Positions 45,205-59,986 of a DNA stretch of 64,000 nucleotides are shown piece by piece; within the stretch, counting starts at the first letter, position 1; each line of letters opens with the position of its first letter. The stretch covers positions 124,001-188,000 of the forward strand of contig JAUIJL010000018.1 in assembly GCA_030431255.1 (NCBI GenBank), in the 5' to 3' direction. The notes beneath the pieces were generated by a model. The model did no database searches. It was not told where the DNA came from and worked only from the letters and a program-made list of their open reading frames with translations. The DNA comes from Thermoanaerobaculia bacterium. GTDB taxonomy: Bacteria > Acidobacteriota > Thermoanaerobaculia > Multivoradales > J023. The translations under genes were made by a program, and so were the position numbers.

Positions 45205-45456
45205 ATGTCGGAATCCTACTCCTCGACGGACGGCGGTGCAACTCGGGCTCGGAGCCGATTCGGAAGGAAAGATTTTTCCGGAGACAACATAAAAAGCACC
45301 GCTCGAAATGTCGAGATTCTGTGGCGGCAGATTTCGTACATCCCGGCCCGACGGTTCCCGTCGAGGATCCACCCCCTCGACGATCCGTCCCGCCTTGAGC
45401 GACGAGCGACCGAGGAAATCCGAACCGAGGCAAGAAAGATTTTCCGAATCGAGTGA
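45205..45456 (+). CDS. Small hypothetical protein
   Basis: 83 residues. ATG 45205 has GAGGA about eight bases upstream. The protein is charged and lacks a recognised domain; its second half (NVEILWRQISYIPARRF, then RRATEEIRTEARKIF) looks like a folded, helical protein. The stop lies immediately before a hairpin and the start of the next plus-strand gene, suggesting an operon-like order. A longer frame starting at 45154 is possible. Confidence is moderate because the opposite strand is also open. Confidence 0.45.
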   Translation: MSESYSSTDGGATRARSRFGRKDFSGDNIKSTARNVEILWRQISYIPARRFPSRIHPLDDPSRLERRATEEIRTEARKIFRIE

Positions 45457-45489
45457 GGGCCGCGACGGACGCGGCCCAGGGGGCACTCG
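45437..45489 (+). promoter_or_regulatory. Hairpin leader, instance 1 (before the 45490 gene)
   Basis: A T-containing tract (AAGATTTTCCGAA) is followed by an 8-bp hairpin, GGGCCGCG (45457-45464) pairing with 45470-45477 across a 5-base loop. AGGGGG and an ATG come about 13 bases later. The order T-tract, hairpin, ribosome-binding site, start is shared with leaders before 48493, 50626 and 52912, although the stem sequence here is different. The T-tract precedes the hairpin, so it is not an intrinsic terminator on this strand. Confidence 0.5.
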
Positions 45490-46251
45490 ATGCGAGACAT
45501 CACGATCGAACGGAATACCCGTTCCAGACGGCGCAAGAGCCGGCGGTTTTCCGCTCGGCTCTTGGCGCTTTTGAGCCGCCGGGATTTCGTCGGGAGGGGA
45601 TTCGGTGAGGTGTTGCCTTGGTGGATCGCCTGCGGTGGGCCGACGACGACGTTGGAGCCGTTCGTCGCCAATTTGCGCGGCGGGTTCAAGGCTCGCTCGT
45701 TCGGTGACGAGATCCGCATTCCCAAGAGCTCGCGGTACGGGTGGCGGAGCTCTTCGGGACCGGCCGGTCAGGTCACGGTTGCTTACGACCCTGCCTTGCT
45801 TCATTTGGAGCCGACGGTGCCCGAGGCCGAGGACGTGCGGTTTCTGTTGCTGCCGTCGGAGGCTTGGCTCGCTCGGGCTCGTCGGCCCGGGCTCGACGAT
45901 GTGGATTTGATCGCGTCGCTTTTCGCCGCCTATGTGGATCGTCGGACGCGATGGCCGGTGCTCCGGGACGTGCGTTTTCATCGACAGATGCTCGAAGCGG
46001 CCCGGGACGGTGACGGGTTGCTGCGGGAGCCGGCTCCGGACCGTGCGGTGATCGAGGGGCTCGGGGCTCTCGGGTTCCGGTCGCCCTGGTGGTTTCAGGC
46101 TTCCCATCGGGAGGTCGAAGGTTTTTTGATCGAACAAACTGCGCGGTGGCGCCGGAAGGAAATCGAAGATGTCGAGACTCGGATCCAAGCAAATCGGGGG
46201 CTACTACCTCATGCCGACCCGCCTGCTTTCCAGCTGTGCCTCGCATTTTGA
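45490..46251 (+). CDS. Hypothetical protein upstream of the methyltransferase/helicase
   Basis: 253 residues from ATG 45490, which follows a hairpin leader and AGGGGG. The N-terminus is strongly basic (RNTRSRRRKSRRF), suggesting nucleic-acid contact. The body is regular with hydrophobic periodicity (VRFLLLPSEAWLARARR) but matches no family I know. Its end overlaps the following gene by 83 bp in another frame, so expression is likely coupled. An accessory of the methyltransferase/helicase protein is plausible from position only. Confidence 0.7.
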   Translation: MRDITIERNTRSRRRKSRRFSARLLALLSRRDFVGRGFGEVLPWWIACGGPTTTLEPFVANLRGGFKARSFGDEIRIPKSSRYGWRSSSGPAGQVTVAYDPALLHLEPTVPEAEDVRFLLLPSEAWLARARRPGLDDVDLIASLFAAYVDRRTRWPVLRDVRFHRQMLEAARDGDGLLREPAPDRAVIEGLGALGFRSPWWFQASHREVEGFLIEQTARWRRKEIEDVETRIQANRGLLPHADPPAFQLCLAF

Positions 46252-48376
46252 GCTCGCCGGCCGGGTGTCGGTGCTCGATCCCTGTGCCGGGGACGGTGAG
46301 GCGTTGGAACGGCTTTGCGAGGCGTTGGGGGATCGGGCGATTCCTTTGGCCTGTGAGCTCGAAGCCGAGCGGGCGGAGGCGTTGCGGGCTCGCGGACGGT
46401 CTTGGGAAGTCCGGCCTTTGGAGGGCGACGCCATGTTGCTGCGCACCCGAGCGCAGATCCTATTTCTCAATCCGCCCTACGATTCGGACCCCAACTACGG
46501 ACGGCTCGAGCATCGGTTTCTGTCCCGCTTGACCCGGGAGTGCTTGGAGGTCGGTGGTGGCTTGATCTTCGTCATCCCGTCGAGCGCGATCCGGGCTTGT
46601 GCTCGGTTTTTGGCCGAGCATTATGACGAGCTTTGCTGTCGGCGCTTTCCCGATCCGGAATTCGCCGACTTCCGGCAGGTGGTGATCTTCGGTCGACGAA
46701 GAGAGCCCGTGCCCGGGGCCGATACGGCTCGAATCCGGGATTGGACGACGAAGACGGATCGGCTGCCGATCCTGGGGCGGGCGGAAACGCCCATGCGGAT
46801 CTCGGGCTCCCCGTGGCGCTTGGTTCCCCGTTTCGAGCTGGACGTCTTCGATCTCGAGCTGCTTTGTGAGCAAGCCTCGGGGTCGATGACCCACGCCGAC
46901 GAGCCGCTGCCCGACCTCGACGAGCTGATCGGCGGCACGTTCGGCACGGCGGTGCCGCCCAAGCCGGCGCACATCGCGTTGGCGATTTCCTCGGGCATGT
47001 TGAACGGCCACGAGATCGAGCCCGACGACCCTCGCCGCCATCCACCGATGCTCGTCAAGGGCACCTTGAGCCGTCGATTCGTCGAAATCGACCGACGTAC
47101 GAATTCGGACGGTGAGGTCACCGGTGTCGTGGAGGTGCAGCGGCCGAATCTTTCGGTCCAGTGCTTGGATCTTCGGCGGTACCGATACTTTCAGCTTCTA
47201 GAAGGGGTCGAGCCGAACGGTGGCGACGATCCCGAGCGGTGGACCTTGGCGGATCTCATGGTCTTTTACGGCCGGGGGCTGACCCGCTTGCTGGCCCGTC
47301 AATTTCCGGCTCTACACGATCCGTCCCGGGACGACCATCGCCTGCCGTTGCCCGATTTGGCGCGCAGGCCCTATCGCGCTCAGCGGACCGCCGTCGAGGC
47401 CTGCCTCAAGCTCATCGCCCGCGGCGAGAATCCCTTCGTGGTCGCCGAGGTGGGCACGGGCAAGTCCACCATCGCTCTCTACTTGACCGCGGCGCTCCGG
47501 CCCGAGTTTCGATCGACCCTGGGCCCTGCTCTCGAGCGCCAGGGCTTGCCCGCCGATCCGTCCGAGCCCCTCGACCGCGAGCTGTCGGCGGAATACGCAC
47601 GCTTGCAAACCCTCCTGCTCGAGCGCATTCGCGAGGATCGCTGGATTCCCGACCGTGCGGGTCGTCTGATCGGGCAATTGGTGGAGCTCCCGTCCTACCT
47701 CGACCGCGCGTCCCGGGAGCTCGGTCCGTTCGAGCTGCGCTATCCCGAGTCCTTGGGTGGCGAGACCCTCGGTCGGGGCCAAGACTTTCCCGACGACTAT
47801 CTCTCGCCCAAGGAACGTCGGCTCTTGGAGCTCCTTCGCGAGCGGCGGGCCGCGGGAGAACGGATCTTGATCTTCCTCCGCCACACCCGGGGTGCCCTCC
47901 CCCGTCGGCTCCGGCGCCTGATCGACGAGCAGCTCGGCGAGCGGTCCGTCTTCCTCGACGCGTCCAAGGTCTCGACCCGCAAACGGCAGGAGTGGATCGA
48001 GCGCAAAGTGGTCCGGCCCGACGTGCCGATCCTGCTGGTCAACCCCAACGCCGTGCGCACCGGCCTCAACAACCTGGTGGGTTTCTCCACCGCCGTCTGG
48101 TTCGAGGTAGACCCGTCCGCCTCCACCTATCGCCAAGCCAACGGGCGCCTGCACCGCATCGGTCAGACCCGGCCGGTGACGGTGGTGTCGTTGGTCTATA
48201 GGGGCACGGCCCAGGAGGTGTTGCTGGATCTGGTGGCCAAGAAGGTGTCGACGTCGCTCCAGGTGGACGGTTTGGACGTGCAGGCGGCGTTGGAGGCCGC
48301 GGGGGTCGGGTCGGACGATGCGTTGGAGCTGGCGCTCTCGATCGGGCAGGCGGTGTATCGGCGGTTGGTGGCTTGA
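46169..48376 (+). CDS. N6-adenine-type methyltransferase fused to a SNF2-like helicase C-terminal domain
   Basis: 735 residues. An N-terminal class I methyltransferase (DUF6094-like) shows SAM-binding VLDPCAGDGEAL (35-46) and catalytic NPPY (101-104), the signature of amino-methyltransferases. A helicase part begins with RPYRAQRTAVEACL and Walker A VGTGKST near 430. The RecA2 half has ILIFLRHTRGAL and motif VI GRLHRIGQTRPV, characteristic of SNF2/RapA-like ATPases. Between motif I and RecA2 there are only about 120 residues and I see no DExx/DEAH motif, so the motor may be crippled by an in-frame deletion. Homologues sit on mobile elements and may act in restriction-modification-like defence or element maintenance. 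The start matches the conserved N-terminal RLGSKQxGGYY. Confidence 0.85.
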   Translation: MSRLGSKQIGGYYLMPTRLLSSCASHFELAGRVSVLDPCAGDGEALERLCEALGDRAIPLACELEAERAEALRARGRSWEVRPLEGDAMLLRTRAQILFLNPPYDSDPNYGRLEHRFLSRLTRECLEVGGGLIFVIPSSAIRACARFLAEHYDELCCRRFPDPEFADFRQVVIFGRRREPVPGADTARIRDWTTKTDRLPILGRAETPMRISGSPWRLVPRFELDVFDLELLCEQASGSMTHADEPLPDLDELIGGTFGTAVPPKPAHIALAISSGMLNGHEIEPDDPRRHPPMLVKGTLSRRFVEIDRRTNSDGEVTGVVEVQRPNLSVQCLDLRRYRYFQLLEGVEPNGGDDPERWTLADLMVFYGRGLTRLLARQFPALHDPSRDDHRLPLPDLARRPYRAQRTAVEACLKLIARGENPFVVAEVGTGKSTIALYLTAALRPEFRSTLGPALERQGLPADPSEPLDRELSAEYARLQTLLLERIREDRWIPDRAGRLIGQLVELPSYLDRASRELGPFELRYPESLGGETLGRGQDFPDDYLSPKERRLLELLRERRAAGERILIFLRHTRGALPRRLRRLIDEQLGERSVFLDASKVSTRKRQEWIERKVVRPDVPILLVNPNAVRTGLNNLVGFSTAVWFEVDPSASTYRQANGRLHRIGQTRPVTVVSLVYRGTAQEVLLDLVAKKVSTSLQVDGLDVQAALEAAGVGSDDALELALSIGQAVYRRLVA

Positions 48377-48428
48377 GGTGCCGGATCGGGACATCCGGCA
48401 GATTCCGAGGCGGGATCCAGATGATTTT

Positions 48429-48492
48429 TCGAAGATTTTTGAGATCCCGAGGGTCCTCGGGATCGGCTGTTCAGGATTCAGAGGGAATCCCC
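48429..48492 (+). promoter_or_regulatory. Hairpin leader, instance 2 (before the RadC-like gene)
   Basis: GAAGATTTTT is followed by a 10-bp perfect stem, GATCCCGAGG (48443-48452) with CCTCGGGATC (48455-48464), and a GT loop. GAGGG and ATG 48493 follow. The stem core CCCGAG/CTCGGG is the same as in the leaders at 50583 and 52869. Confidence 0.6.
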
Positions 48493-48918
48493 ATGCTCTA
48501 TCTACCGTCGTCTCCGTCGAGCTCGCTGCTCTTTCGTCTTCATGCCGCCGAGTATGCTGCCTGGATTCGGTTCCATCACCCGCAGCGGAGGGTCTTGGGG
48601 GCTCTTCATTTGCACTCCACCGGAATGGTCTTGGCCCAGACCATCGCCTCGCACTATTCGGCGTTCGATGCGGAAGCGACCCTCGAAGAGACGATTCGGC
48701 TCGGAGCCGGGGCCGTTCTCCTCTTTCAACACCACCCGGACGGGCTCGGTCGATGGTCGGCTTGCGATCTCGAGCTGACCCAGAGATTTCTGGAGGCGAC
48801 CCAATCCGCCGGCATCCAGCTGCACGACCACTTGATCGTCGCCGAGCCCGGATCCTCGGCGTCCCTCGCGGCCGGTCAGTGGCGGGATCTGCCGAGCATC
48901 TTTTCTGAAGCACACTAA
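48493..48918 (+). CDS. RadC-like JAB-domain protein
   Basis: 141 residues from ATG 48493, preceded by GAGGG. RadC-type JAB features are present: RRVLGALHLHSTG, then GAGAVLLFQHHPDG, then SACDLELTQRF and GIQLHDHLIV. In RadC/JAMM proteins the metal site is H-x-H...S..D. Here the first His is Gln79 while His81, Ser89 and Asp92 are kept, so metal binding may be weakened or the ligand shifted. RadC-like genes are frequent on genomic islands, near helicases and anti-restriction genes; their biochemical role is still unclear. Follows the methyltransferase/helicase gene by 116 bp. Confidence 0.85.
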   Translation: MLYLPSSPSSSLLFRLHAAEYAAWIRFHHPQRRVLGALHLHSTGMVLAQTIASHYSAFDAEATLEETIRLGAGAVLLFQHHPDGLGRWSACDLELTQRFLEATQSAGIQLHDHLIVAEPGSSASLAAGQWRDLPSIFSEAH

Positions 48919-49174
48919 AGGTTTGCTGGACAGAGTAGGGGAGCTCGACCTGATTTATGCCTGGATCGAAAAAACACCGGAACCCACCCACGGCAACACA
49001 CCTTCCCGTCGGGGACCGCCGGCAGAGAGTCGGCTCCCCTCCCGTCGCCCTAGACCACCGGTTACGGCGTAGCCGGGCGGAGGCTCTCCACCGCGCGGGA
49101 TACCGCCGACGAGAGGCGTTGTCAGGGTCCTCCTCGACCGGGCGATCGAAACAACAACCGTACCGCCGGAGCTG
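48919..49174. other. Convergent intergenic gap
   Basis: About 256 bp between the RadC-like gene and the convergent lectin-like gene. I see no gene, RNA or clear terminator; short GC-rich frames on both strands lack start signals. Confidence 0.3.
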
Positions 49175-49846
49175 TTACCGCTCCCCGATAGCCAGCCAGT
49201 GAAAGCAGTCACACTCCGAAAGGCTGGTGGTTCCGTAGCTACTCCAAGAGAATTCCGTGGTGCTCCGGGCTTGTAGGCGGACGGCGATACACCCGCTGTT
49301 GTTCGCCGATTCGTCCGCGGTCGTCAGGATCCTCGGAATCGTGGCGAAGGGTGTTTCGAAGACGACGGTGCCGCTGGTTCCCGTGGATCCGCTGGTGGAA
49401 CAGTCACCGACGGTGCCGGTTTCCAAGGCTTGGTGACCGATGGTGTCGGAATTTTTCGCATGGAGCGTGTAGGGGCCGGCTTTGATTTCTTGTCTCGGCT
49501 GGAGGGTGGTGAAGGTCCCGGTGTCGCTTCCGGCTCGAACCTCGATCTGGACCCATCGCCTTTCTCCGGAAAAAACGTCCGGTCCCAAATCCACATCGAG
49601 ATCGACCAAACCGTCCAGGACCTCGACGTCTTCCAGCACGACCACCGGACCCACTTGATTGCCGAACTCTAAAGAGTCGAAGGCCACGACCCGAAAATCG
49701 AAAAGGCCGTTGGCCGCGAGGCCGGCCTGCTCGAGCCGACCCTGGTACGAGAAGCTCGTGGTGACGGGCTCCGCGCCGAGGCTCGCAGCGCAGAACAGAC
49801 CGACGGCAAGGGTGAGGAAGATACGGTTGTAGGTTTGCTGCAGCAT
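49175..49846 (-). CDS. Secreted protein with H-type-lectin-like C-terminal domain
   Basis: 223 residues from ATG 49846, with GGGAGAG upstream. A signal peptide is evident (RIFLTLAVGLFCAASLGAEP). The N-terminal half (TSFSYQGRLEQAG, GLFDFRVVAFD) matches a common secreted-protein beta domain that often precedes phage-tail- or lectin-like modules. The last ~65 residues (VVFETPFATIPRILTT, FSWSSYG, HWLAIGE) fit the H-type lectin pattern, so it may bind carbohydrate. It lies downstream of another secreted-protein gene (17-bp gap), likely one transcript. Confidence 0.75.
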   Translation of the reverse strand: MLQQTYNRIFLTLAVGLFCAASLGAEPVTTSFSYQGRLEQAGLAANGLFDFRVVAFDSLEFGNQVGPVVVLEDVEVLDGLVDLDVDLGPDVFSGERRWVQIEVRAGSDTGTFTTLQPRQEIKAGPYTLHAKNSDTIGHQALETGTVGDCSTSGSTGTSGTVVFETPFATIPRILTTADESANNSGCIAVRLQARSTTEFSWSSYGTTSLSECDCFHWLAIGER

Positions 49847-49862
49847 GGGTTTTTCTCTCCCT

Positions 49863-50369
49863 TCAAAAGAAGACATGAGGGTGGGCCCCCAAGGAATCGT
49901 CGCTCCAACGGCTGGTGTCGCCACTCTCGAAACCGTCGGCGAAAAGAATGTCGACGGAGCTCGACTGGGTCAGAAAGCCGCCTTTCAGGACGAAGCTGCC
50001 ACCGACGACGACCCCCGCATCCGCTTGACCTGCAATGCCGCTCAGCGCGAAGTCGCCGTCCGAGAGCCGAAAAGCTCCGTTGTCGATCGAGAACGACGTC
50101 ATATCGAAGGCATCGCCGGCCTTATTCAAGTACTCACCCAGGGTTTGCCCGTTGGAGAGCACCATGTCGTCGATCGAATCCCAGACTCGTCCTGTTGCCA
50201 GAACGTTCGAAGGCATGAGCTTCAAGGCCCCCCGTTCCGTCGAAGAAACGTCGCGCAACCGACTCGGGCTGTCGCGGATCAAGAGATCCCACGCGGAGTC
50301 TTCCTGCGCTTCCAAAGCCAGCGCCACGAAGGACAAGAGAATCGAAAAAACCAAAATATAGAGCTTCAT
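49863..50369 (-). CDS. Secreted protein with C-terminal DGFESGDTS tag
   Basis: 168 residues from ATG 50369, which begins a signal peptide (KLYILVFSILLSFVALALEAQ). The middle part (FRLSDGDFALSGIAGQADAG, then GSFVLKGGF) is a pattern seen in many extracellular proteins of Acidobacteriota and Planctomycetes. The C-terminus is ILFADGFESGDTSRWSDD, nearly the same tag as in the giant protein and the protease. Forms a two-gene unit with the lectin-like gene. The 5' region is divergent from the cysteine-rich gene on the plus strand. Confidence 0.8.
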   Translation of the reverse strand: MKLYILVFSILLSFVALALEAQEDSAWDLLIRDSPSRLRDVSSTERGALKLMPSNVLATGRVWDSIDDMVLSNGQTLGEYLNKAGDAFDMTSFSIDNGAFRLSDGDFALSGIAGQADAGVVVGGSFVLKGGFLTQSSSVDILFADGFESGDTSRWSDDSLGAHPHVFF

Positions 50370-50560
50370 CAGAGCTATTACCCCCGGAGAAAACGGTGCA
50401 CGACCCATCCGGCCACGAAGTCCGGCGTCTCGGCTTGCATGAGATAGACGCGACATATCGGCCGCGAGGGGCTCAAGGGCCGCCGTGGCCCCGCAGCAGC
50501 ACCGATCTGTCTCCTCGCCGGGGTCGAGCTCCCCATCCTGCTCGGCGGAGGAGGCTTTCA

Positions 50561-50625
50561 GAAGGTTTTTCAAATCGGGTGCATCCCGAGCGATGACGCT
50601 CGGGATCGATTTCGAGGACACCGTG
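50561..50625 (+). promoter_or_regulatory. Hairpin leader, instance 3 (before the cysteine-rich gene)
   Basis: GAAGGTTTTT is followed by a 10-bp stem, ATCCCGAGCG (50583-50592) with CGCTCGGGAT (50597-50606), and an ATGA loop; then GAGGA and ATG 50626. An ATG inside the loop (50593) is in frame with the gene but would be masked by the stem, which supports the downstream start. Confidence 0.6.
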
Positions 50626-51414
50626 ATGGCCGATATCGATTGTTCGAAGTGTGGGGAGCCTTGGGACGCTTACGAGGTGCGGCAAGCGGAGTTGCACGGG
50701 CTGGGAGACATGACGCTCGAGGAAGCTAGGCGGTTTTGTCGAGGAGAAGGGTGTCCTTGCTGTGGGTTCGGCAGCCGGTGCCCGAGCTGTGCCGGCGGGG
50801 GCAGGGATCTGCGGTACGCCTACGGGCCGAGGCGATGTCGTTTGTGCTCGGACACGGGACGGGTCCTGGCGCGACTCTTGGTTCGAAACCTTCCACCGAC
50901 GACCAGCGCGGCGACGGCGCTTCGGGTGGAGCGCCCGGCCGGGATTTGGATCACGGGTTACGGCACGGCCGAGCGGAGGATTTTCAGTCCCCGGGCATTC
51001 AAGGGGCTGCCCGGGGAGCTGGAAGATTCGGCGGACGGGCCGTTTCTGGAGCGGTATCTGCGATGCCCCGAGGGATGTTGGGACGATTTGCCGGAGTGCT
51101 CGGCTTGTGGGGGTGACGGGTCGTTGCACGTCGACGATCCGGAGGCCCTCGCCGAACGGGCCGCTCGTCAGGACATAGCCGCTTGGGACGGAGATCCCTA
51201 TCTGATCTTGGAGAAACGAGGGCTGCTCGCTGAGAATCGGCCACGGATCTTTGCTTTTCCGAAGAGCACGGGTCGATCGGTCAACCGATCGGACGGTGAT
51301 CTTCGAGAGATCGACGGGTCTTTGCCGGCGGCCACTCTCCCCCGCTACGTTCGCAGGTGGCCGTCCCGACCCGACGATCCGCGCATCGGAAGGGTCGCAC
51401 CGACGGCCTCGTGA
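50626..51414 (+). CDS. Cysteine-rich, zinc-binding-like protein
   Basis: 262 residues from ATG 50626 (GAGGA eight bases upstream, after a hairpin leader). At least four Cys clusters appear: DCSKCGEPWD, CRGEGCPCCGFGSRCPSC, CRLCSDTG and CPEGCWDDLPECSACGGDG. The spacing resembles DnaJ-type or rubredoxin-like zinc knuckles. The C-terminal ~100 residues are without motif. It probably binds zinc and nucleic acid or protein; the actual role is unknown. Located in the plus-strand block of leader-bearing genes. Confidence 0.75.
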   Translation: MADIDCSKCGEPWDAYEVRQAELHGLGDMTLEEARRFCRGEGCPCCGFGSRCPSCAGGGRDLRYAYGPRRCRLCSDTGRVLARLLVRNLPPTTSAATALRVERPAGIWITGYGTAERRIFSPRAFKGLPGELEDSADGPFLERYLRCPEGCWDDLPECSACGGDGSLHVDDPEALAERAARQDIAAWDGDPYLILEKRGLLAENRPRIFAFPKSTGRSVNRSDGDLREIDGSLPAATLPRYVRRWPSRPDDPRIGRVAPTAS

Positions 51415-51509
51415 TCACGGTCGTGTTAATCTATCCGTGCCGGGATGGCTTCCCTCGAAGCCGCGCGACGCGGACGTTCGAGCCCGAGAGGCTCCCGGAG
51501 AAATTAAAT

Positions 51510-52307
51510 ATGGGTCGACTCTACTCCACTCCTAACGGTCCCTTCACCGCCGATCAGGTCAAACCCGGCGATCCCTACGAGCTGTCGAACGGGCATGCCA
51601 TCCACTGCTTGCCTTCCGGTGGACGGCATTCCGGGGCCAACGCTGAGGGGGCTTCGGTGATCGGGTCCGATCCCGAGGTCGAGTCCGTGGGTGTCGACGC
51701 GGGGTTTACTCCTGAGCCCGGCACTCTGCGGGCACCCGACGTGGCCGTGGGGGTATCGAACGAACCCGGTTGGAGCCCTGGCGTGCCTCCACTGGCGCTC
51801 GAATACGCCGATCGTGGCCAAGACGAAGACGACCTGACCGACAAGATTCGCGATCTGTTGGCCGCCGGCACCAAATACGTGTGGGTCGTGCGTCTCGACG
51901 GTCCGCGGCGGGTGGAGATCCACCGGCCGAAGGAAAAGATGCGTTTGGCCCATCCCGGTGACGAGCTCAAGGCTCCCGGGGTGTTGCGGAATCCGGTGCC
52001 CGTAGAGGCTCTCTACGACAAGGAAGCCGCCCAGAAGGTGACCCTTCGGAATCTGTTGCAGCGTCAGGGTTACGAGGATCTCGATGCGGTGTTGAATGCG
52101 GGCAAGGCCGAGGGTATCGCCGAGGGAGAGCTTCAAGGTCGCCTAGACGACCGCCGCTCTTCGTTGATCGAGCTCTGTGAAGCCAAGGGGCTCGAGCTGG
52201 GTGAGGACGACCGGGCTCGGATCGCGGAGTGTGCGGATCTGGATCGGCTCAAGCTCTGGTTCGGCCGGGCGGCCACTGCCGACACCGCCGACGGTCTTTT
52301 CGACTGA
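51510..52307 (+). CDS. Uma2-family (PD-(D/E)XK-like) nuclease-like protein
   Basis: 265 residues. ATG 51510 is preceded by GGAG at an ideal distance, so the much longer upstream frame is not used. The central part (APDVAVGVS, LALEYADRGQD, then a helix and YVWVVRLDGPRRVEIHRP) follows the Uma2/DUF820 pattern: an Asp and a Glu before a helix and a V-x-W-V strand, as in PD-(D/E)XK folds. After residue ~205 there is an Ala/Glu/Gly-rich linker (AGKAEGIAEGELQG) and a helical tail, RRSSLIELCEAKGLELGED onward, that recurs in the Rpn-like protein at 53493. Catalytic activity of Uma2 proteins is mostly predicted, not shown. Confidence 0.8.
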   Translation: MGRLYSTPNGPFTADQVKPGDPYELSNGHAIHCLPSGGRHSGANAEGASVIGSDPEVESVGVDAGFTPEPGTLRAPDVAVGVSNEPGWSPGVPPLALEYADRGQDEDDLTDKIRDLLAAGTKYVWVVRLDGPRRVEIHRPKEKMRLAHPGDELKAPGVLRNPVPVEALYDKEAAQKVTLRNLLQRQGYEDLDAVLNAGKAEGIAEGELQGRLDDRRSSLIELCEAKGLELGEDDRARIAECADLDRLKLWFGRAATADTADGLFD

Positions 52308-52324
52308 GCCCAACCGAGCTGCGG

Positions 52325-52819
52325 ATGAGCCGGATCTGGCGGAGGATGGTTCGGCTGACCGCAGCTCACGGGCATTTGTTCGCCGTACGGTGGACGACCT
52401 ACGGTTGCGTGGTGCTTCCCGTGTTGGTTTGGGGCGTCTCGCTCGCCTTTATCCCTTTCTTCTCGAATCCCGAGTATCGATCCATGGTGTGGCCGCCTCC
52501 GCTGGACGTGTTGTCCTTAGCGGTTCTCGCCCATCTCTTGCTTGCGGTGTGCTTCCATTTCGGACTACTTCTGCTCGCATGGCGCGGACGTCGCCTTCTC
52601 GATCAGGGTCGATGGGAGGAGGCGGTGGTGCTGAAAGTCGTTCTCATCTGGGGTTTTCTGGTGTTGACCGTGCGATTCGAAAAGACTTCGCGTCTCAGGG
52701 CGATCACGGTACTCGCTGTCGGTCCCTTGGAGCGAGTGGAGGTCGGCGACCATCTGCGTTTTCCGACCGCTTTTCGCACGCCCATCCTGGCGATTCCGGC
52801 CCAGGCGTTCGAAGACTGA
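52325..52819 (+). CDS. Hypothetical membrane protein
   Basis: 164 residues from ATG 52325, 17 bp after the Uma2-like gene. Hydrophobic segments lie at about 23-47 (CVVLPVLVWGVSLAFIPFF), 60-82 (VLSLAVLAHLLLAVCFHFG) and 103-117 (VVLKVVLIWGFLVLTVRF). The C-terminus is soluble. No family recognised. Confidence 0.6.
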   Translation: MSRIWRRMVRLTAAHGHLFAVRWTTYGCVVLPVLVWGVSLAFIPFFSNPEYRSMVWPPPLDVLSLAVLAHLLLAVCFHFGLLLLAWRGRRLLDQGRWEEAVVLKVVLIWGFLVLTVRFEKTSRLRAITVLAVGPLERVEVGDHLRFPTAFRTPILAIPAQAFED

Positions 52820-52830
52820 ACCGCTCCCCC

Positions 52831-52911
52831 GCCGATCCGATCCAGAAGGTTTTTTCCTCACTTCGTGAGATCCCGAGCATGGAGCTCGGGATCCTAATGA
52901 GGATAAAGCCC
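52831..52911 (+). promoter_or_regulatory. Hairpin leader, instance 4 (before the 52912 gene)
   Basis: GCCGATCCGATCCAGAAGG is followed by a T6 tract and a 10-bp stem, GATCCCGAGC (52869-52878) with GCTCGGGATC (52884-52893), loop ATGGA; then GAGGA and ATG 52912. This whole ~80-bp unit recurs in decayed form at 55776-55860. Confidence 0.65.
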
Positions 52912-53358
52912 ATGTTGCACTTCACAGGTATCCTCACCATCGACAGTCTGCTCGCCGGTGCCGAATCATCCCGGGACGGGCACGGCAACACCTTCCTTTA
53001 TCTCTTTCTCGAAGACACCGAGCGCTACCTCTTCGATTTCGAAATGGACTGCGATCGATGGGAGCAATTCGACACGAGAAGCGATGCTTCCTATTTCGGG
53101 ATTTGGATCTCGAAGAAGGACTTGCGCACGCTGACTTTTGCCGAGGGCGACCTCACCGCCGTGCAATTCGTCGACGAGACGGCTTTCGACCGAGGCGTGG
53201 CCGAGATGTGCCGGTGCTATGAGGAGTCCCCGGCGTTCACCACCATCGATTTGTCGAAGCGGACGGTGACTCGTCACTACGAGGATCGGGAGCTTCACTT
53301 CATCGACGTGGAGCGGGGCCGGGCGTTGTTGGCGGAGCTCGGGGCGTCCGGATCTTAG
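52912..53358 (+). CDS. Hypothetical protein after the hairpin leader
   Basis: 148 residues from ATG 52912, with GAGGA eight bases upstream. The frame is open far upstream (to 52177), but that part overlaps two other genes and the leader, so the short form is chosen. The protein is acidic, mixed alpha/beta (FLYLFLEDTERYLFDFEMD, FGIWISKKDLRTLTF, HFIDVERGRALLAELG) and cytoplasmic. No family recognised. Only its leader links it to the RadC-like and cysteine-rich genes. Confidence 0.65.
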   Translation: MLHFTGILTIDSLLAGAESSRDGHGNTFLYLFLEDTERYLFDFEMDCDRWEQFDTRSDASYFGIWISKKDLRTLTFAEGDLTAVQFVDETAFDRGVAEMCRCYEESPAFTTIDLSKRTVTRHYEDRELHFIDVERGRALLAELGASGS

Positions 53359-53492
53359 TAGGCCCGGCGCCGGCCGATGTCCGTGCAGCCCTACATCTGC
53401 ACCGAAATCTCTTCTATTCAGTGAGTTTGATTCTTGGTCAAGTTTTTCTCTAAAATCTGAGCTGATCTTCAACGAAAACACAGGAATACCGA

Positions 53493-54518
53493 GTGCAGCC
53501 ACCCAAACCCGAGCACGACGCCAGCTACAAGAGCTTCTTCAGCCACAGGGCCATGGTCGAGCCGCTCCTCAGACGCATCGTCGCCCAAGAGTGGATGAAG
53601 GACCTCGACTTCTCTTCCCTCGAGCCGGTCAAAACACATTTCGTCGGACCCCAGAACCACAAGCGGGACACCGACTTGATCTGGCGCCTTCATCTGAAAT
53701 CCCGAGACGAGTGGCTTTACGTCTATCTATTGCTCGAATTCCAGTCCACTCCCAACGACTTCATGGCCTTGCGCATGCTGACCTACACCTGTCTTCTCTA
53801 CGAAGACTTGGTCAAACGAAAACAGCTCACTCCCTACGCCACGCTGCCCCCGGTGCTTCCGATCCTTCTGTACAACGGCAAAACCCCGTGGACCAAAGCG
53901 GACCAGATCGCAGACCTCATCGACTCCCCGGAAGGCCTCAGTCCCTACGTCCCCCGTTTTCGGTACCACCTGATCGACGAAGGCCGGCTGCCCGAAGACC
54001 TGCTCGAGCCGACCGACGACCCGGTCGCGGCGTTGTTCAAATTGGAGCGGGCCCAAACCAGCGAGGACCTGCTCGGGGGCCTGAGGTCCATGTTTGAGAC
54101 CACCCGGGCCCCGGACCTGAAATCTTTGAGAGAAGACCTGATAAAATGGCTTCAACGCAACGTCCTGCCGATCCGTTTCGCGGGGCAAGCCGTTCCCGAA
54201 GCCCAAAACCTGCTGGAGGCACCCCAAATGCTCGCGGAAACCATCAAAACCTGGCCTGAAAAGTGGCTCAAGGAAGGACTGGAACAGGGCAGAGCCGAAG
54301 GTAGAGCCGAAGGTAGAGCCGAAGGTAGAGCCGAAGGCAAAGCCGAGGCCGCGGCGGAGGAACGACGGAGCTCCATCATCGAGGTTTGCTCGGCCCGCGG
54401 ACTAGTGCTGTCCGGGTCACAGCGACGGCGGATCTCCGATACCCGGGATCTCGACCAGCTGAGGGACTGGCTGATCAAGGCCGCGTCCGCGGACTCCGCA
54501 GACGACATCTTCACCTGA
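53493..54518 (+). CDS. Rpn-family (transposase_31/YhgA-like) PD-(D/E)XK nuclease
   Basis: 341 residues from GTG 53493. The N-terminus is typical of Rpn/YhgA-like proteins: HDASYKSFFSHRAMVEPLL, then DLIWRLHL, WLYVYLLLEFQST (Glu of the nuclease core) and PILLYNGKTPW. E. coli Rpn proteins promote RecA-independent recombination and are DNA endonucleases. A 12-bp tandem repeat encodes a GRAE-type linker near residue 270, followed by a helical tail (RRSSIIEVCSARGLVL, then LDQLRDWLIKAASADSADDIF) homologous to the tail of the Uma2-like protein at 51510. In known Rpn genes, variable C-terminal tails control activity. Stands alone on the plus strand, with 135 bp before it. Confidence 0.88.
   Translation: MQPPKPEHDASYKSFFSHRAMVEPLLRRIVAQEWMKDLDFSSLEPVKTHFVGPQNHKRDTDLIWRLHLKSRDEWLYVYLLLEFQSTPNDFMALRMLTYTCLLYEDLVKRKQLTPYATLPPVLPILLYNGKTPWTKADQIADLIDSPEGLSPYVPRFRYHLIDEGRLPEDLLEPTDDPVAALFKLERAQTSEDLLGGLRSMFETTRAPDLKSLREDLIKWLQRNVLPIRFAGQAVPEAQNLLEAPQMLAETIKTWPEKWLKEGLEQGRAEGRAEGRAEGRAEGKAEAAAEERRSSIIEVCSARGLVLSGSQRRRISDTRDLDQLRDWLIKAASADSADDIFT
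54291..54338 (+). repeat. 12-bp tandem repeat, four copies, in the Rpn-like gene
   Basis: AGAGCCGAAGGT is repeated three times exactly and once with the last base changed, then continues as a degenerate unit. Each copy adds four residues (RAEG), so copy-number change keeps the frame and only alters linker length between the nuclease and the tail. Confidence 0.9.
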
Positions 54519-55068
54519 CTCCGTCGAGCCGGGCCCTCGCCGCCGCCCCGAAACGAGCTCGGCCGAGAAAGTCGGGTCCCATTCCCGGTGGCCCGAACAT
54601 CGGTCACTGTGCCCGCTGCCTGGTCGCTGAGCTCACGCGGGCCCTCGGTTTGGAGGATCGGGCGAACGAAATTTCGAGCTCGATCGTCAGGAAATCAGAT
54701 GACGATCGCGAGGCTGCCGCGGCGAAGGCTGGTTTTTGGGCTCGAAGCTGGCACCACCAATCCACCGGAAGCGTGCTGCCTCCTCCGGGACGACAGAGAA
54801 CAAAATGAGAATTCCTGCTCAGTATGGGGACTTCGGGCCGGAATTCACGCTGTAAGTCAGCAGACGGATCGAGACGAAGCGCAAGCGATACAACGCTTCC
54901 GGTGGTAGCTCCCTCTTGTCTGATCTTGGCCATAATACTTGCCTCAATCGGTAGACACGTCGAGTGTCCAGACACTAGGCGACGTCTACGAATCGCAGTG
55001 GTCGACAAGTTTCTTGCCGAGGTGGGAATGAATCCCTCTCACCTCAGAAACTAAAAATGAGGTCTAAA
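54519..55068. other. Intergenic stretch with no supportable gene
   Basis: About 550 bp. Frames are open on both strands, but none has a Shine-Dalgarno or a recognisable protein, and composition shifts toward lower GC after about 54800. I see no RNA gene or repeat. Confidence 0.35.
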
Positions 55069-55728
55069 ATGAGCATCAATGACATGGGATGGATCGATCG
55101 AGGACGTCGATTGTGGCCACCGATCAAAATGACTTTTTTGATCGTGTTGTGGATCAGTCTTTTCATCGTCGGCTATCACGTCGACAGTGAGCCGATCCGA
55201 CTCGCTCTGTCGGACAGCGCTCGTCTGGGCAACATGGATCTCGACGAATTCCTGACGAGGCTCGTGAAGACCCTATTCACGTGGACCTGGCCGAATTGCC
55301 TGATGCTATGTTGCTTGGCGGCGGTCATCGGCGACATCGGGCGGCAAGTGTCGGACAATCCGCAGATAAGCGAAGACTCACCGGCCCCCTTGAAGAATGC
55401 GACAAAAAGACCCACCGTTACCGAGTATCGTCCAGCGCTCTCCAGAGCGTTTTTCGTTTTCATCCTGCTGTTGAGCGGTCAGCTGATCTTGGGCGGTAGC
55501 TTGGGCAATCCCGTGGCACCTTCGGTCCCGGACACGAGCACCGTCGTCGTCTCGGGAGCGTTGACCGACATAGATTCAGAGCGTCCGGGAGTGACGGCCA
55601 GCGAGAGCGCGATGGTCGCTACCGATGCAGCCCGGTATTTCCGAATCGCCAGCTTCGTCTCTTTCTTGGGGTTCATGGTCGGATACAACCCGGCGGTGTT
55701 TAAAGACTTCTTGCAGAGGGCTCTCTAA
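55069..55728 (+). CDS. Hypothetical membrane protein
   Basis: 219 residues from ATG 55069, with GAGGT just upstream (an ATG at 55057 is also possible). Hydrophobic segments lie at about 20-40 (MTFLIVLWISLFIVGYHV), 75-95 (CLMLCCLAAVIGDIG), 125-145 (FFVFILLLSGQLILGG) and near the C-terminus (FRIASFVSFLGFMVG). No conserved motif recognised. It is followed by a decayed hairpin leader. Confidence 0.65.
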   Translation: MSINDMGWIDRGRRLWPPIKMTFLIVLWISLFIVGYHVDSEPIRLALSDSARLGNMDLDEFLTRLVKTLFTWTWPNCLMLCCLAAVIGDIGRQVSDNPQISEDSPAPLKNATKRPTVTEYRPALSRAFFVFILLLSGQLILGGSLGNPVAPSVPDTSTVVVSGALTDIDSERPGVTASESAMVATDAARYFRIASFVSFLGFMVGYNPAVFKDFLQRAL

Positions 55729-55775
55729 CGTCAAAATTTCGTCTCCGGAAATAGCCGCACTCCGCCGGTCGCCTC

Positions 55776-55860
55776 GCCGATCCGATCCAAAGGGCCTTTT
55801 CCCAACTTCTTGAGATCCCGAGCATGAAGCTCGAAGCTTAGATGGAGGATCAAGCCCCGT
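55776..55860 (+). promoter_or_regulatory. Decayed hairpin leader without a gene
   Basis: This ~85-bp segment matches the leader at 52831-52911: GCCGATCCGATCCAAAGGG, a short T tract, GAGATCCCGAGC with an ATGAA loop, then GATGGAGGATCAAGCCC. The right arm is mutated, leaving a 5-bp stem, and the start position carries GTG followed by only five further sense codons before TGA (55877-55879). It looks like the orphaned 5' end of a lost gene. Confidence 0.55.
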
Positions 55861-55970
55861 GAGGCCCGGGATTCAATGACTCCGTAGCCGTCACCAGCGA
55901 TCTCTCGATCAGCGCCCCACAGTGTCGTATCCTCTAACCGACCCATCCATGTGATCCGGGAGGAACGACC

Positions 55971-58900
55971 GTGGCGTTGCGATTCGACGAGCTGTCCCCC
56001 AGGGAATTCGAGGAGCTTTGTGCCGCCCTGTTGCGGGCGAAGAACCATCAGACTCGGCATCTGGGTGCCGGCGGCAGTGAACGCGGCTGGGATGTCGAGA
56101 GCACGGACCCGGACGGTCGGCTCTGGTGCGTGCAATGCAAGCGGGTCAAGAGCCTAAACCCCGGGAAAGCGGTGCGGGAGCTGACCAAGGTCTTGAACGA
56201 CCCAAAGAGCGTGCAGCCCGAGATTTGGGCGCTGATGGCGTCGACGGACGTCACTCGAAACGTCCAGGAAAAGCTGGTCGAGGCGGCGGATGGTCGATGT
56301 GAGATCCGGTGTTTCGGACCCACGGACCTCGAAGGATGGACCCACGAGCACGCGCGCATTCGCGATCGGTTTTTTGCCGGACGGGAGCCCCATGCGCGGA
56401 TCGCTTACGTAAGTGCCGTCAAGGCGGACCGGGACGTGGCCGCCGAGCTTCGGCGGGATCTCCAGCTGGTCTTGCGGCGGCATTGGGAGGCGGCGTGGAA
56501 CGTCGCTTGGCACGACCCCACCGAGGATGGCCTGCCGGAGATCCCCGAGGCGGCGTCGGTGGCGTTCGTGGTGGTGAGCCCGGAGGCGTTGGCGGATCGG
56601 GCGTTGATGGGTTTTTGGAAGAGCGCGATTTGTCAGGGTCACCGGGCCGGGCGACGGAAGCTCTTCGCCCTGTCGGTGGCGCCCACCGTGCCCTGGCCCG
56701 ACTGGCTGACGGAGCGCTTCGAGCGCCGGGATCTACGGCTCGACAGCGAGGATTACCGAATCGATCTGAGCGCGATCATCTCCAAATGGATCGGCAAGAC
56801 CGAATCCGAGCTGCGAGGCGAGCTGGTGGCAGGCCCGGGATCGCCCGCGATCCGGTTGGACGCCGACCTGCACGGGCGTTTGGTGGATTGGCTTGAGCCC
56901 GTGATGGAGCGAGATCTTTCCAGACGCTTTTTGGCGGTCGGTCTCGGTCTCGACGGCATGAACGTGCTCGACGACTTCCCCACCGACGCGCTGCGGGCGT
57001 CCGCCGCCGTGGTGCTGGGTCGTCGGGACGACGATCCCGTGCGGGCCGCGGAACGTTTGATCCGGGTCGTGCGGGAGGCGTTGAAGGGCGAGGAGTCCCG
57101 GGAACGGCTCCAAGTGCTCGACGGGATCGAGCGGGATCTCAGCGCCCGACAAAAGGCCGAGCCGGAAGCCGTCGAACGGGGCCTTTTGCCGGCCTGGCTC
57201 AAGAGGGTACGAGACGACCACGAGCGCCTGGTGGACCATTTCCAAGTGCGCCACGAGCTGGATTTCTTGGACAAGGTCTACGTGGAGCTGGAGATGCTTC
57301 CCGACCACCTCGCCGAGCATCGGTTGATGGACGGGGGTGGGCTTTCGGAAAAAGGACGGCAGCTCGGCGGTCGGCAGCTGAGCATCCGCGACATCCTGGC
57401 GCTCGGTCCGGAGGACTTCCCTTGGGTCACGCGCCGGTGGGTGGTGCGCGGGGATCCGGGGGCGGGCAAAACCACGTTGTTGCGGCATTTGGCGTCGAGA
57501 CTGGCCGCGGAGCGGGAGCGCGGATGGGTGCCGGTTTTTCAAAGCCTGCCCGTGCTCGTCCGCTCGAAGCAAAGCCTGCTCGACCGGGTCGACGAGGCGT
57601 TCGAGGAGGTCCAGGGACGCTCCGGCCTGAAACCCGTGCTCGAGCGCGAAGGGCAGGAAGGGCGACTCTTGGTGTTGCTCGATGGGCTCGACGAGGTCGG
57701 CCAGGAAGACCGTGCGCGCGCCGAGGACCAGCTCCGCCGGCTCTCCGACCGTTGGCCCGAAACTCCCATCGTGGTTTCGACCCGGCCCATCGGCTACAGG
57801 CGTTTTTCCCCCGACTTTCGTGAGCTGCAGATCCTGCCCTTAAGCCGGGAGCGTCGGCTCGGCTTTTTGGCCGCTTGGTTCGGGCGGGCCGACGACCGGG
57901 TCGATACGGATCGGGCCGAGACCGCGCTTCGTCAGTTGGAGGCGTCGGGGTTGGACGAGCTGGCCGGCAATCCCCTCTACCTCACGTTGATGGCGATCTT
58001 GCTCGAGCAGGATAAAGCCCCCGACAAAAATCGCTCCAAGCTCTACGATCAGGTCTTTACGCTCTTGCTCGAAGGCAAGCACAAACACGAGCAAACCGAG
58101 CCCGTCGAGCGACCCGCTCTGGTGCGCAAGATCCTGCGTCTTTTGGCCTACACCTTGACGGAGGACAATCGGGATTCGGAGTCCAAGGCCGATCTGCAGG
58201 AGCGCCTCTACCACGAGCAGATGCACGGTCTGCACGAAGAGCTGAGGCGGGTGCCTCGATGGGACGGTCCCCTGAGCCACTTCCTCGAAGACTTGGCGGA
58301 AAGAGTGGGCATCCTCGGACCCCACGACGGTGAGGACGCGGATTGGCGGTTCTGGCATCGCACCTTCAAGGAAGCTCTGACCGCCGAGCATTTGGCCCAA
58401 ATGAAGGCTGAGGACCTGCTCGCGCGGGCCGCTTCCTTGGGCGGCGAGGAGAGCCGTTGGGCCGAGCCTTTCGCCTTGCTCACCGGCCAGGTCGAGGAGC
58501 CCGACGCCCTGGTGAAGCAGCTGGTGGACACCAACAAGACCCTCGGCCTGCGGGCCCTGGCCACGGCTCAAGGGGTGAGCGATGCCACCCTGGACGAGAT
58601 TCTCGCTCTGACCGACGATCCCGACGCGCGGACCGAGGTCTTCGAGCAGATCCCGGGTCAATTGCAAGATCCAGAGCGCTCTTTGCAGCTGATCGATCGG
58701 CTGCGCCGGCGGACCCGCAACGGTAGCGATTTGTTCTGGCTCTACGATGCCGCCGAGGCGGTGGCCGGGCAGTCCGAAGACTGGGTCGAGCCGGCTCGAG
58801 ATCTCCAGGCCCGTTTCTTCGACCACATCGCCGTGCCGGATCCGGCGCTCTTCCGACGCTTCCGAACGGCCGAGGGCGAGGACAAGGAGCTTTGGTGCGA

Positions 58901-59636
58901 GATTCCGAAAGGCACCTATTGGGTGGGCAGCCCGGAAGACGAGGAAGGGCGGACGGAACATGACGGCGACGAGATCCGCCATCGAGTGGAGCTGGCACGG
59001 AGCTATTGGATGGCGGCAATTCCGGTGACCAACGCTCAATACGCGGCGTTTGATCCAGGTATCCCGCCCCATCGCTGGGACAGTGTGCCCAAAGAGTCGG
59101 ATCCAGATTTTCCACGGGTCAAGATTTCTTGGTGGGAGGCGGTGTCGTTCTGCCGTTGGCTGGCGAGCCGAGGCGGTCTCACCGGGGCGCGCTTGCCGTG
59201 GGATGCGGAATGGGAGGTGGCCTGCCGCGGCGGCAGTGACACCACGTATTGGAGCGGCGATACCGAAGAGGACCTCGAGCGGGTCGGTTGGTACGATAAG
59301 AACGCCGATGGCCGGGCCCATCGCGTCGCCGAAAAGCCCGCCAATGCCTTCGGGCTCTACGACGCGCACGGCAACGTGTGGGAGGGAATCCAGGACACCG
59401 ACAACTGGGAGGCCTTCAAAACCCGGCCCACCGACGGCCTGTTCGCGGTCGATCCTGCCGACCCACCGGCAGATCTTGCCGCGTCCCCCCGCGCGAGCCG
59501 CGTGATTCGCGGTGGCAGCTTCTTGGGTTCCGCTCGGGACGCCCGTTCGGCTTTTCGGTTCAACTGGGTCCCGTGGTATCGGGGTCTGTTTCTGGGTTTT
59601 CGCGTGTTGCTGCCCTTCGCCCCGAGCGACCCTTGA
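55971..59636 (+). CDS. DGR target 1: Mrr-like nuclease / TIR-like / NACHT / FGE-lectin-fold protein
   Basis: 1221 residues from GTG 55971, preceded by GGGAGG. Residues 1-110 form an Mrr-type restriction endonuclease-like domain: LSPREFEELCAALLRA, then GWDVES and VQCKR, the D...(E/Q)xK signature. Residues about 135-270 look like a TIR/SEFIR-like domain (ARIAYVSAVKADRDVA, ASVAFVVVSPEALADR). The NACHT/STAND ATPase has Walker A GDPGAGKTT (494-502), Walker B LLVLLDGLDE and STRP, with C-terminal helical parts up to ~860. From about 967 an FGE/SUMF1-type, C-type-lectin-fold domain begins (ELWCEIPKGTYWVGS, NAYGLYD-like NAFGLYDAHGNVWE, RVIRGGSFLGS); its final ~47 residues are encoded by VR1. The FGE active-site function is probably lost and the fold serves as a diversified ligand-binding surface. 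Inference: a defence NLR-like protein whose nuclease or TIR effector is triggered by ligand binding at the variable end. Confidence 0.93.
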   Translation: MALRFDELSPREFEELCAALLRAKNHQTRHLGAGGSERGWDVESTDPDGRLWCVQCKRVKSLNPGKAVRELTKVLNDPKSVQPEIWALMASTDVTRNVQEKLVEAADGRCEIRCFGPTDLEGWTHEHARIRDRFFAGREPHARIAYVSAVKADRDVAAELRRDLQLVLRRHWEAAWNVAWHDPTEDGLPEIPEAASVAFVVVSPEALADRALMGFWKSAICQGHRAGRRKLFALSVAPTVPWPDWLTERFERRDLRLDSEDYRIDLSAIISKWIGKTESELRGELVAGPGSPAIRLDADLHGRLVDWLEPVMERDLSRRFLAVGLGLDGMNVLDDFPTDALRASAAVVLGRRDDDPVRAAERLIRVVREALKGEESRERLQVLDGIERDLSARQKAEPEAVERGLLPAWLKRVRDDHERLVDHFQVRHELDFLDKVYVELEMLPDHLAEHRLMDGGGLSEKGRQLGGRQLSIRDILALGPEDFPWVTRRWVVRGDPGAGKTTLLRHLASRLAAERERGWVPVFQSLPVLVRSKQSLLDRVDEAFEEVQGRSGLKPVLEREGQEGRLLVLLDGLDEVGQEDRARAEDQLRRLSDRWPETPIVVSTRPIGYRRFSPDFRELQILPLSRERRLGFLAAWFGRADDRVDTDRAETALRQLEASGLDELAGNPLYLTLMAILLEQDKAPDKNRSKLYDQVFTLLLEGKHKHEQTEPVERPALVRKILRLLAYTLTEDNRDSESKADLQERLYHEQMHGLHEELRRVPRWDGPLSHFLEDLAERVGILGPHDGEDADWRFWHRTFKEALTAEHLAQMKAEDLLARAASLGGEESRWAEPFALLTGQVEEPDALVKQLVDTNKTLGLRALATAQGVSDATLDEILALTDDPDARTEVFEQIPGQLQDPERSLQLIDRLRRRTRNGSDLFWLYDAAEAVAGQSEDWVEPARDLQARFFDHIAVPDPALFRRFRTAEGEDKELWCEIPKGTYWVGSPEDEEGRTEHDGDEIRHRVELARSYWMAAIPVTNAQYAAFDPGIPPHRWDSVPKESDPDFPRVKISWWEAVSFCRWLASRGGLTGARLPWDAEWEVACRGGSDTTYWSGDTEEDLERVGWYDKNADGRAHRVAEKPANAFGLYDAHGNVWEGIQDTDNWEAFKTRPTDGLFAVDPADPPADLAASPRASRVIRGGSFLGSARDARSAFRFNWVPWYRGLFLGFRVLLPFAPSDP
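59486..59627 (+). repeat. DGR variable repeat VR1 (142 bp)
   Basis: Aligned without gaps to the template at 61292-61151 (minus strand). It differs at 17 positions; 13 are adenines in the template. The other four lie in a 9-bp block opposite template 61187-61195. The last 36 bp (from CTGGGTTTTCGC to GCCCCGAGC) are invariant and would act as the initiation-of-homing site. It encodes the exposed end of the FGE-like domain; the stop codon follows nine bases later. Confidence 0.95.
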
Positions 59637-59986
59637 GCCGAGATCCTTGATTCTTGAAGACGGTAAGAAAATCCGGTCATTCGGCAATTCTTGCCGAGCG
59701 CTCGGCAAGAGCGAATATCCGGAATAGATCCCACCTTCGGCTCAAAACCCCATAAAACGCGACCTTCTTCGGATCCGATCCCTGATCGACTCTGCCGACC
59801 CATCGGCAAATCTGGCCGGGATCCGGCAACGAGACGGCGGATTCGGCCGGATAACGTCCGCGTTTTCGGCAGTTTCTTGCCGCGTTTTTCAGGGATGCGA
59901 CCGTCGACGGTAGATCTTGCCGTTCTACCGGCAGATCCGGCCGGGCGCGGCCATGCCCGGCCGATTCCGGCCGGCTGAGCCGACGG
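59628..59986. repeat. 3' flank of VR1, duplicated in inverted orientation next to VR2
   Basis: The first ~45 bp after VR1 (GACCCTTGAGCCGAGATCC onward) are identical to the sequence after VR2, and weaker similarity continues for about 275 bp (shared blocks include AATAGATCCC, TTCTTCGGATCCGAT and GGCAGTTTCTTGCCGCGTTTTT). No gene is seen. The region is full of short GCCGG/CGGCA hairpins. It separates the convergent target 1 and reverse-transcriptase genes. Confidence 0.8.
59682..59710. other. Hairpin/cruciform downstream of VR1
   Basis: A perfect 22-bp palindrome, TCTTGCCGAGC plus its complement (59689-59710), begins 62 bp after VR1. It overlaps an alternative stem, CGGCAA-TTC-TTGCCG (59682-59696). 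In characterised DGRs a hairpin/cruciform just downstream of the variable repeat aids target recognition; this is the matching position here. Confidence 0.6.

Follow-up and report, generated by a model that had tools for sequence, protein, structure and literature searches.

A short leader module, in which a T-rich motif, a spacer and a hairpin precede a gene start, recurs in this genome and in two related ones; the repetition is real and exceeds chance. Sixteen copies, one of them decayed, were found: six on contig C43, four on contig C21 of the same genome, five in a genome of another genus of the same family (G006) and one in a congeneric genome (G001). We propose that they mark an establishment-type regulon of a plasmid- or ICE-like island, whose genes have this promoter-proximal module with its hairpin in common, and we put the probability of this reading at about one half. 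The hairpin likely acts as RNA, as far as the sequences tell. The window, that is, the whole analysed stretch of 64,000 nucleotides, is part of C43 (202 kb) in a genome of 10.19 Mb.

The initial annotation of the window had suggested that a shared element ties unrelated genes into one regulon. The sharing is supported by the 16 copies, by their near-constant geometry in the own genome and by orthologues that keep the leader. "Unrelated" proved only partly right, since the genes with recognisable domains, namely SSB, RadC, a weak ArdC match, a Mg-chelatase/YifB-like ATPase and a DUF6094 methyltransferase-helicase, form a plasmid- or ICE-type set.

A leader module repeated along the island

The four hairpins first noticed in the window, at 45457, 48443, 50583 and 52869, all have perfect arms, of 8, 9, 10 and 10 bp (c1 to c4, Table 1). 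Three of the four share CCCGAG/CTCGGG, as had been stated, and the stem at 45457 differs. In c1 to c4 the 17-nt T-rich motif, aligned by hand, ends 12, 12, 11 and 12 nt before the stem, and the start codon follows the stem by 12, 28, 19 and 18 nt. A fifth leader, c5, keeps the left arm of c4 with a decayed right arm and is without a clear cognate gene. Rho-independent terminators likewise place a GC-rich hairpin by a T tract; here, however, the tract lies before the stem on the coding strand, none follows directly after it and gene starts come next. The view that these are not terminators was thus right for the coding strand, and a terminator scan listed none of the four window stems.

Table 1. 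Leaders, hairpins and associated genes. Plain numbers are window positions; other locations carry the contig, genome or locus name.
Feature	Location	Strand	Description
Leader c1	45428..45477	+	motif AGGCAAGAAAGATTTTC; spacer ends GAGTGA
Stem of c1	45457-45477		GGGCCGCG/CGCGGCCC; 8 bp, loop 5
Gene after c1	45490..46251	+	253-aa protein
DUF6094 methyltransferase with helicase C-terminal domain	46169..48376	+	second gene of the c1 unit
Leader c2	48414..48464	+	motif GATCCAGATGATTTTTC, spacer, stem GATCCCGAG/CTCGGGATC
Stem of c2	48443-48464		9 bp, loop 4
Gene after c2	48493..48918	+	RadC-like JAB protein (PF04002, E 9e-12)
Leader c3	50555..50606	+	motif CTTTCAGAAGGTTTTTC, spacer AAATCGGGTGC, stem ATCCCGAGCG/CGCTCGGGAT
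Stem of c3	50583-50606		10 bp, loop 4
Gene after c3	50626..51414	+	262-aa protein, CxxC pairs by eye
Leader c4	52840..52893	+	motif ATCCAGAAGGTTTTTTC, spacer, stem GATCCCGAGC/GCTCGGGATC
Stem of c4	52869-52893		10 bp, loop 5
Gene after c4	52912..53358	+	148-aa protein
Leader c5	about 55785..55839	+	decayed duplicate of c4; right arm GCTCGAAGCT, aligns with c4
Leader c6	C43:59347-59396		110 kb from the window leaders; before a 382-aa gene
Leader e1	G006		before SSB
Leader e2	G006		precedes a gene whose ArdC match is weak (PF08401 E 0.0037, below cut-off)
Leader e3	G006		before a c1 relative, then DUF6094
Leader e4	G006		before a Mg-chelatase/YifB-like ATPase
Leader e5	G006		precedes a gene whose DUF6573 match is weak
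Three-way-junction leader	L098:1012-1104, 3577-3672, 11513-11604, 15078-15164
Three-way-junction leader	L100:4087-4180	-
Three-way-junction leader	L187, L189, L190, L192, L194-L196, L198

Several of the genes behind the leaders are of no recognisable kind: the c1 protein is without a Pfam family, and those after c3, c4 and c6 are without a Pfam or NCBIfam family. Relatives of the c1 protein were aligned from five genomes, and a comparison of its structural model (mean pLDDT 67.7) with solved folds gave nothing at E 0.001. The second gene of the c1 unit carries PF19587 (E 1.1e-15) and PF00271 (E 3.9e-07).

Chance was assessed in several ways. Non-overlapping stems of at least 8 bp number 22 in the window, against 6-13 in ten first-order Markov simulations, so the leaders are a minority of such stems there. 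Among 3000 random 60-nt stretches of the contig, 1.1% hold such a stem (background 1.1-2.3% per random 60 nt), as against four of nine hand-listed island gene starts between 45490 and 55971 (nominal binomial P 1.8e-6), the other five having none. As a harder control, a stem lies within 60 nt upstream of 4 of 92 starts along the whole contig, these being crude longest open reading frames whose real starts were not called. In a genome-wide search the palindrome ATCCCGAG-N2-12-CTCGGGAT occurs at six places in 10.19 Mb and at none in the reversed control. Four of the six are modules with the T motif on C43; the other two, on contigs C29 and C37, are without it. The C29 palindrome, ATCCCGAGCTCTCGGGAT (L001:1501-1518), without a T motif, stands about 24 nt before a minus-strand ATG.

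Further copies in the same genome came from models and scans. A model trained on c2 to c6 (R1) scored c1, which had no part in building it, at 18.6 bits (E 0.0054 in 23 kb), and c1 was absent among its genome-wide matches. Genome-wide, R1 added d1 (E 0.0098) and d2 (E 0.43), both on the 16.9-kb contig C21, and d3 and d4 were found on the same contig through hairpin lists and scans. These four modules precede four consecutive genes on one strand, encoding a 238-aa protein, a DUF6908 protein, SSB and RadC; the d1 gene is related to the RadC-like gene after c2, and d2 has the variant CCCTTC. A second model, R2, returned genome-wide only its nine own-genome training copies, missed d3 and gave its next match at E 3.47. 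A scan of the genome for GATTTTTNNNNTCNNGTGA with two mismatches gave 151 hits against 45 in the reversed control, and c1 was the sole clear module among the 30 loci read. Outside the window, contig C43 has three further hairpins (C43:28739, 31618 and 33751) that at first seemed similar. They follow an A-rich tract and TTTTCC and were set aside as minus-strand terminators.

The surroundings of the leaders hold other features of note. A single open reading frame of 8193 codons on the minus strand (18891-43472) takes up more than a third of the window. The protein encoded at 55971-59636 (+) combines FGE-sulfatase, NACHT and Mrr domains, with TIR below cut-off, and adjoining it at 59987-60988 (-) is a reverse transcriptase with kinship to the group II type (below cut-off); a quick search of 58800-60060 found no template/variable repeat pair at 40/60 identities.

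Leaders of related genes in other genomes

Of the 148 genomes of the class, 7 have DUF6094 relatives, the own genome among them. In G006 five modules (e1 to e5) lie on one strand of one 28.8-kb contig. In G001, examined on orthology alone, GGGTGA and an 8-bp stem with different arms, GACCCGGC/GCCGGGTC, lie upstream of the c1 relative, without a T run. Wider searches added nothing: a scan of 20 genomes for GATCCNGAAGGTTTTTC yielded only e1 and c4, both already known, as modules among the 28 of 30 listed loci that were read, and none was convincing among 12 of 21 other-genome loci read for R1 (59 genomes) or all 18 for R2 (148 genomes). A 26-nt pattern of e4 and e5 retrieved those two alone from 148 genomes. 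R2 reported nothing in G006 and G001 although six copies are there, so absence elsewhere is weak evidence. Pattern scans of genome and viral collections gave five and four stretches, of which the known contig alone was genuine on reading; no relative of the DUF6094 protein was confirmed in these collections. Plasmids hold relatives in 69 records, all below 60% identity and none with 80% coverage. Apart from the leaders, C43:195446-197977 (-) and L084:9036-10680 (-) are related open reading frames, TIR-like by eye and 35% and 49% identical in two matches; the pair sits on both leader-carrying contigs.

Within the own genome the geometry of the module is close to constant. From the end of the T motif, aligned by hand for these counts, to the stem there are 11-13 nt in nine own-genome copies and 15-16 nt in the three measured copies of the relative; from the stem to the start codon there are 12-44 nt in 11 of 12 measured copies and 73 nt in e2. 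The spacer ends in GTGA, by eye, in 8 of 16 copies, with close variants in most others. The hairpin usually has 7-10 bp, and its loops of 3-6 nt have no common sequence. A T-rich motif and a hairpin 11-13 nt apart in the own genome resemble a processive-antitermination signal of the lambda nut kind, in which an island-encoded factor would read a linear box together with a hairpin at a set distance from it. In lambda nut, however, the boxB hairpin has a conserved pentaloop, whereas the loops here vary in length and sequence, and antitermination would be of little benefit to such short units. We therefore hold this possibility to be very improbable.

In several cases the arms change and the pairing stays. 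Orthologues c1/e3 (30% identity) and d4/e1 (60%) retain the leader with different arms, and the RadC pair c2/d1 (34%) retains it with the CCCGAG core in common. When 10 copies are aligned, pairing holds in 97.1% of cells and two-sided change occurs at each of the 7 core pairs, while registers slid by 1-3 pair in 17.2-47.5% of cells. The rows were picked with the stem among the criteria (by eye, palindrome, scan or a pairing-scoring model), and the count thus overstates covariation; less biased are the congeneric copy, taken by orthology, with its 8-bp stem, and e4 and e5, found through the motif alone, whose stems of 4-5 bp are interrupted. Could the hairpins be functionless, a single ancestral intergenic region having been copied by neutral duplication? 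The clear c4/c5 duplication and the likeness of arms within C43 would fit, but the differing arms of the stems before orthologues (c1/e3, d4/e1 and the congeneric copy) would not, nor would the low background of stems of at least 8 bp, and we regard this account as quite unlikely.

Two families of the order (f6 and f9) have a different and larger leader of about 95 nt before related genes: c1-like with DUF6094, RadC, YifB and, by eye, an SSB-like protein. It forms a three-way junction with a basal stem, a long second stem bearing GCAAGG/CCTTGC and two short hairpins. At E 0.01 a model from five copies, four of G011 and one of G022 (R3), matched 14 sites in 5 of 148 class genomes, training copies included; among 396 genomes sampled from the phylum, with 10 candidates scored per genome, G022 was the sole match at E 1e-4. 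Across 13 copies (12 distinct), in an alignment fitted to R3 itself, covariation is strong: two-sided change occurs at 22 of 33 pairs, the covariation score is reached by 0 of 500 shuffles, and slid registers pair in at most 45.2% of cells. No Rfam match was found for this leader in the loci searched. Folds of G011 place a further closing stem outside the three-way junction. Thus two kinds of structured leader, showing no kinship to each other, stand before related genes.

How the hairpin may act

The initial annotation offered two mechanisms, a palindromic operator or an RNA-level element, and the second fits better. An operator for one island-encoded transcription factor would account for sites just before genes and for the CCCGAG/CTCGGG core in c2 to c4, c6 and d1 (c5 keeps the left arm), including both RadC copies. 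But the half-site gaps in the five copies of this type are 4, 8, 7, 7 and 7 nt, which is not the fixed spacing of conserved half-sites expected of a dimeric operator; other arms occur in c1, d3, d4, e1 to e5 and the congeneric copy; and the likeness of arms within C43 can stem from duplication, as in c4/c5. The differing arms and variable gaps favour a folded transcript, or a folded single strand, over a palindromic operator, although the stem itself served to pick out most copies; we consider the operator unlikely.

Pairing alone does not distinguish RNA from single-stranded DNA, being compatible with both alike. A single-stranded-DNA signal in conjugative entry, such as an Frpo/ssi-like promoter or priming site before early genes, would suit a set of genes that includes SSB, RadC and an ArdC-like protein and the placing of the leaders on one strand per contig; Frpo elements precede such genes, according to the part of PMC11541004 that describes them. 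Against this, it would be difficult to fit the two promoter boxes, paired, into 7-10 bp of stem, and no sigma-70 boxes were seen. Its prospects appear slim.

Returning to a leader acting in the transcript, we propose the following. A T-rich sequence, roughly AGAAAGGTTTTTC, would form part of a promoter or recognition site at the 5' end; after a short spacer would come the hairpin, whose arms vary with pairing kept, and then the ribosome-binding site and start codon. The module would put establishment and single-stranded-DNA-handling genes (SSB, RadC, ArdC-like, the DUF6094 unit and YifB-like) under one control. The simplest role of the hairpin in the transcript may be that of a 5'-end hairpin stabilising and insulating each short mRNA, and it might also be the site of an island-encoded factor.

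Several features bear on this proposal. Directly upstream of d1 lies a stem of 11 bp that resembles a terminator and ends in a T tail, and at c2 the upstream stop codon and the RadC start are 116 nt apart; these leave little room for a promoter outside the module, and thus a promoter should lie in or next to it. Overall, shuffled sequences give nearly the same number of terminator-like sites (3.1 against the 4 present, and 10.4 against 12). The T-rich motif is, by eye, the only common upstream sequence, and sigma-70 scans at modules c1 to c5 and d1 to d4 gave no promoter site. As the motif keeps a constant distance from the stem, the hairpin would be at or near the 5' end of the mRNA, and reuse of the module over one functional gene set suggests co-regulation. 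More broadly, it is possible, if rather doubtful, that DUF6094-type islands of Acidobacteriota have an island-wide leader-RNA regulon, in which many establishment genes would begin with the structured RNA peculiar to their island. The fold would be alike within an island and replaced between islands before related genes, as a small hairpin in one family and the 95-nt three-way junction in others, and an island-encoded or single-stranded-DNA-handling reader would switch on the whole set at cell entry.

Other structural candidates were dropped. An outer helix suggested by single folds gave a combined P of 0.12 over 14 leaders (c1 alone 0.06, e3 alone 0.017) and P 0.26 for own against exchanged flanks; pairing between the ribosome-binding region and bases ahead of the T motif gave P 0.74; and a leader peptide and a K-turn were weighed by eye.

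Comparison with known systems

Rfam gave nothing relevant at gathering score in the window and eight island loci, and nothing in the parts searched to E 5 or 1. The radC motif is a candidate cis-regulatory RNA named for radC. It is listed for Proteobacteria (RF01754) in the part of PMC2864571 that covers it, and its Rfam model had no match in the window or the island loci searched. STAXI (RF01728), as that part of PMC2864571 describes it, likewise folds and is found close to genes for SSB, antirestriction, topoisomerase and integrase. It is a pseudoknot repeated two or three times, one hairpin per gene being seen here, and it had no gathering-score match in the window or the eight island loci and none to E 5 in window 45300-56000. 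Frpo/ssi elements resemble the module as folding sequences before SSB and anti-defence genes of mobile elements, but their -35 and -10 boxes lie in the folded strand, by the relevant part of PMC11541004, and none were seen in the 7-10-bp stems here.

A parallel in arrangement is offered by the establishment genes of pLS20-family plasmids, whose upstream regions are termed EGeRS1 and EGeRS2 in the part of PMC8708921 devoted to them. There too, one regulatory region is repeated before several establishment units, ardC among them, and related plasmids use two unrelated regions (PMC8708921). According to the same part, EGeRS1 spans 400-600 bp with many inverted repeats, whereas the module here is of about 50-60 nt with one hairpin and belongs to Acidobacteriota; a region of 400-600 bp does not precede each unit, the interval before RadC at c2 being the 116 nt given above. 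EGeRS2 has promoters with Reg operators, unlike the present module, and plasmid p576 has two short inverted repeats that most likely enhance mRNA half-life (both in that part of PMC8708921). Each of the nearest parallels, the pLS20 family, STAXI, the radC motif and Frpo, therefore has at least one defining feature that was looked for and is lacking here.

The way in which mobile elements activate their establishment genes in a new host is understood for few plasmids, namely those of Escherichia coli and Bacillus, as the parts of PMC8708921 and PMC11541004 on this subject indicate. If our reading is true, it would add a short, easily cloned module from another phylum, and related genes would keep a principle, the structured leader, while the structure itself is swapped. 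The c1, c3, c4 and d2 proteins and a DUF6908 protein would then be candidate establishment or anti-defence factors. The open-licence literature searched (most subscription papers lie outside its scope) had no mention of DUF6094, and the phrases "radC motif" and "radC RNA motif" were not found in it. A relative of the DUF6094-helicase protein, in two pieces with 92% coverage and 35.4% identity, is present in an unannotated 485-kb record of an uncultured phage (LR745208.1).
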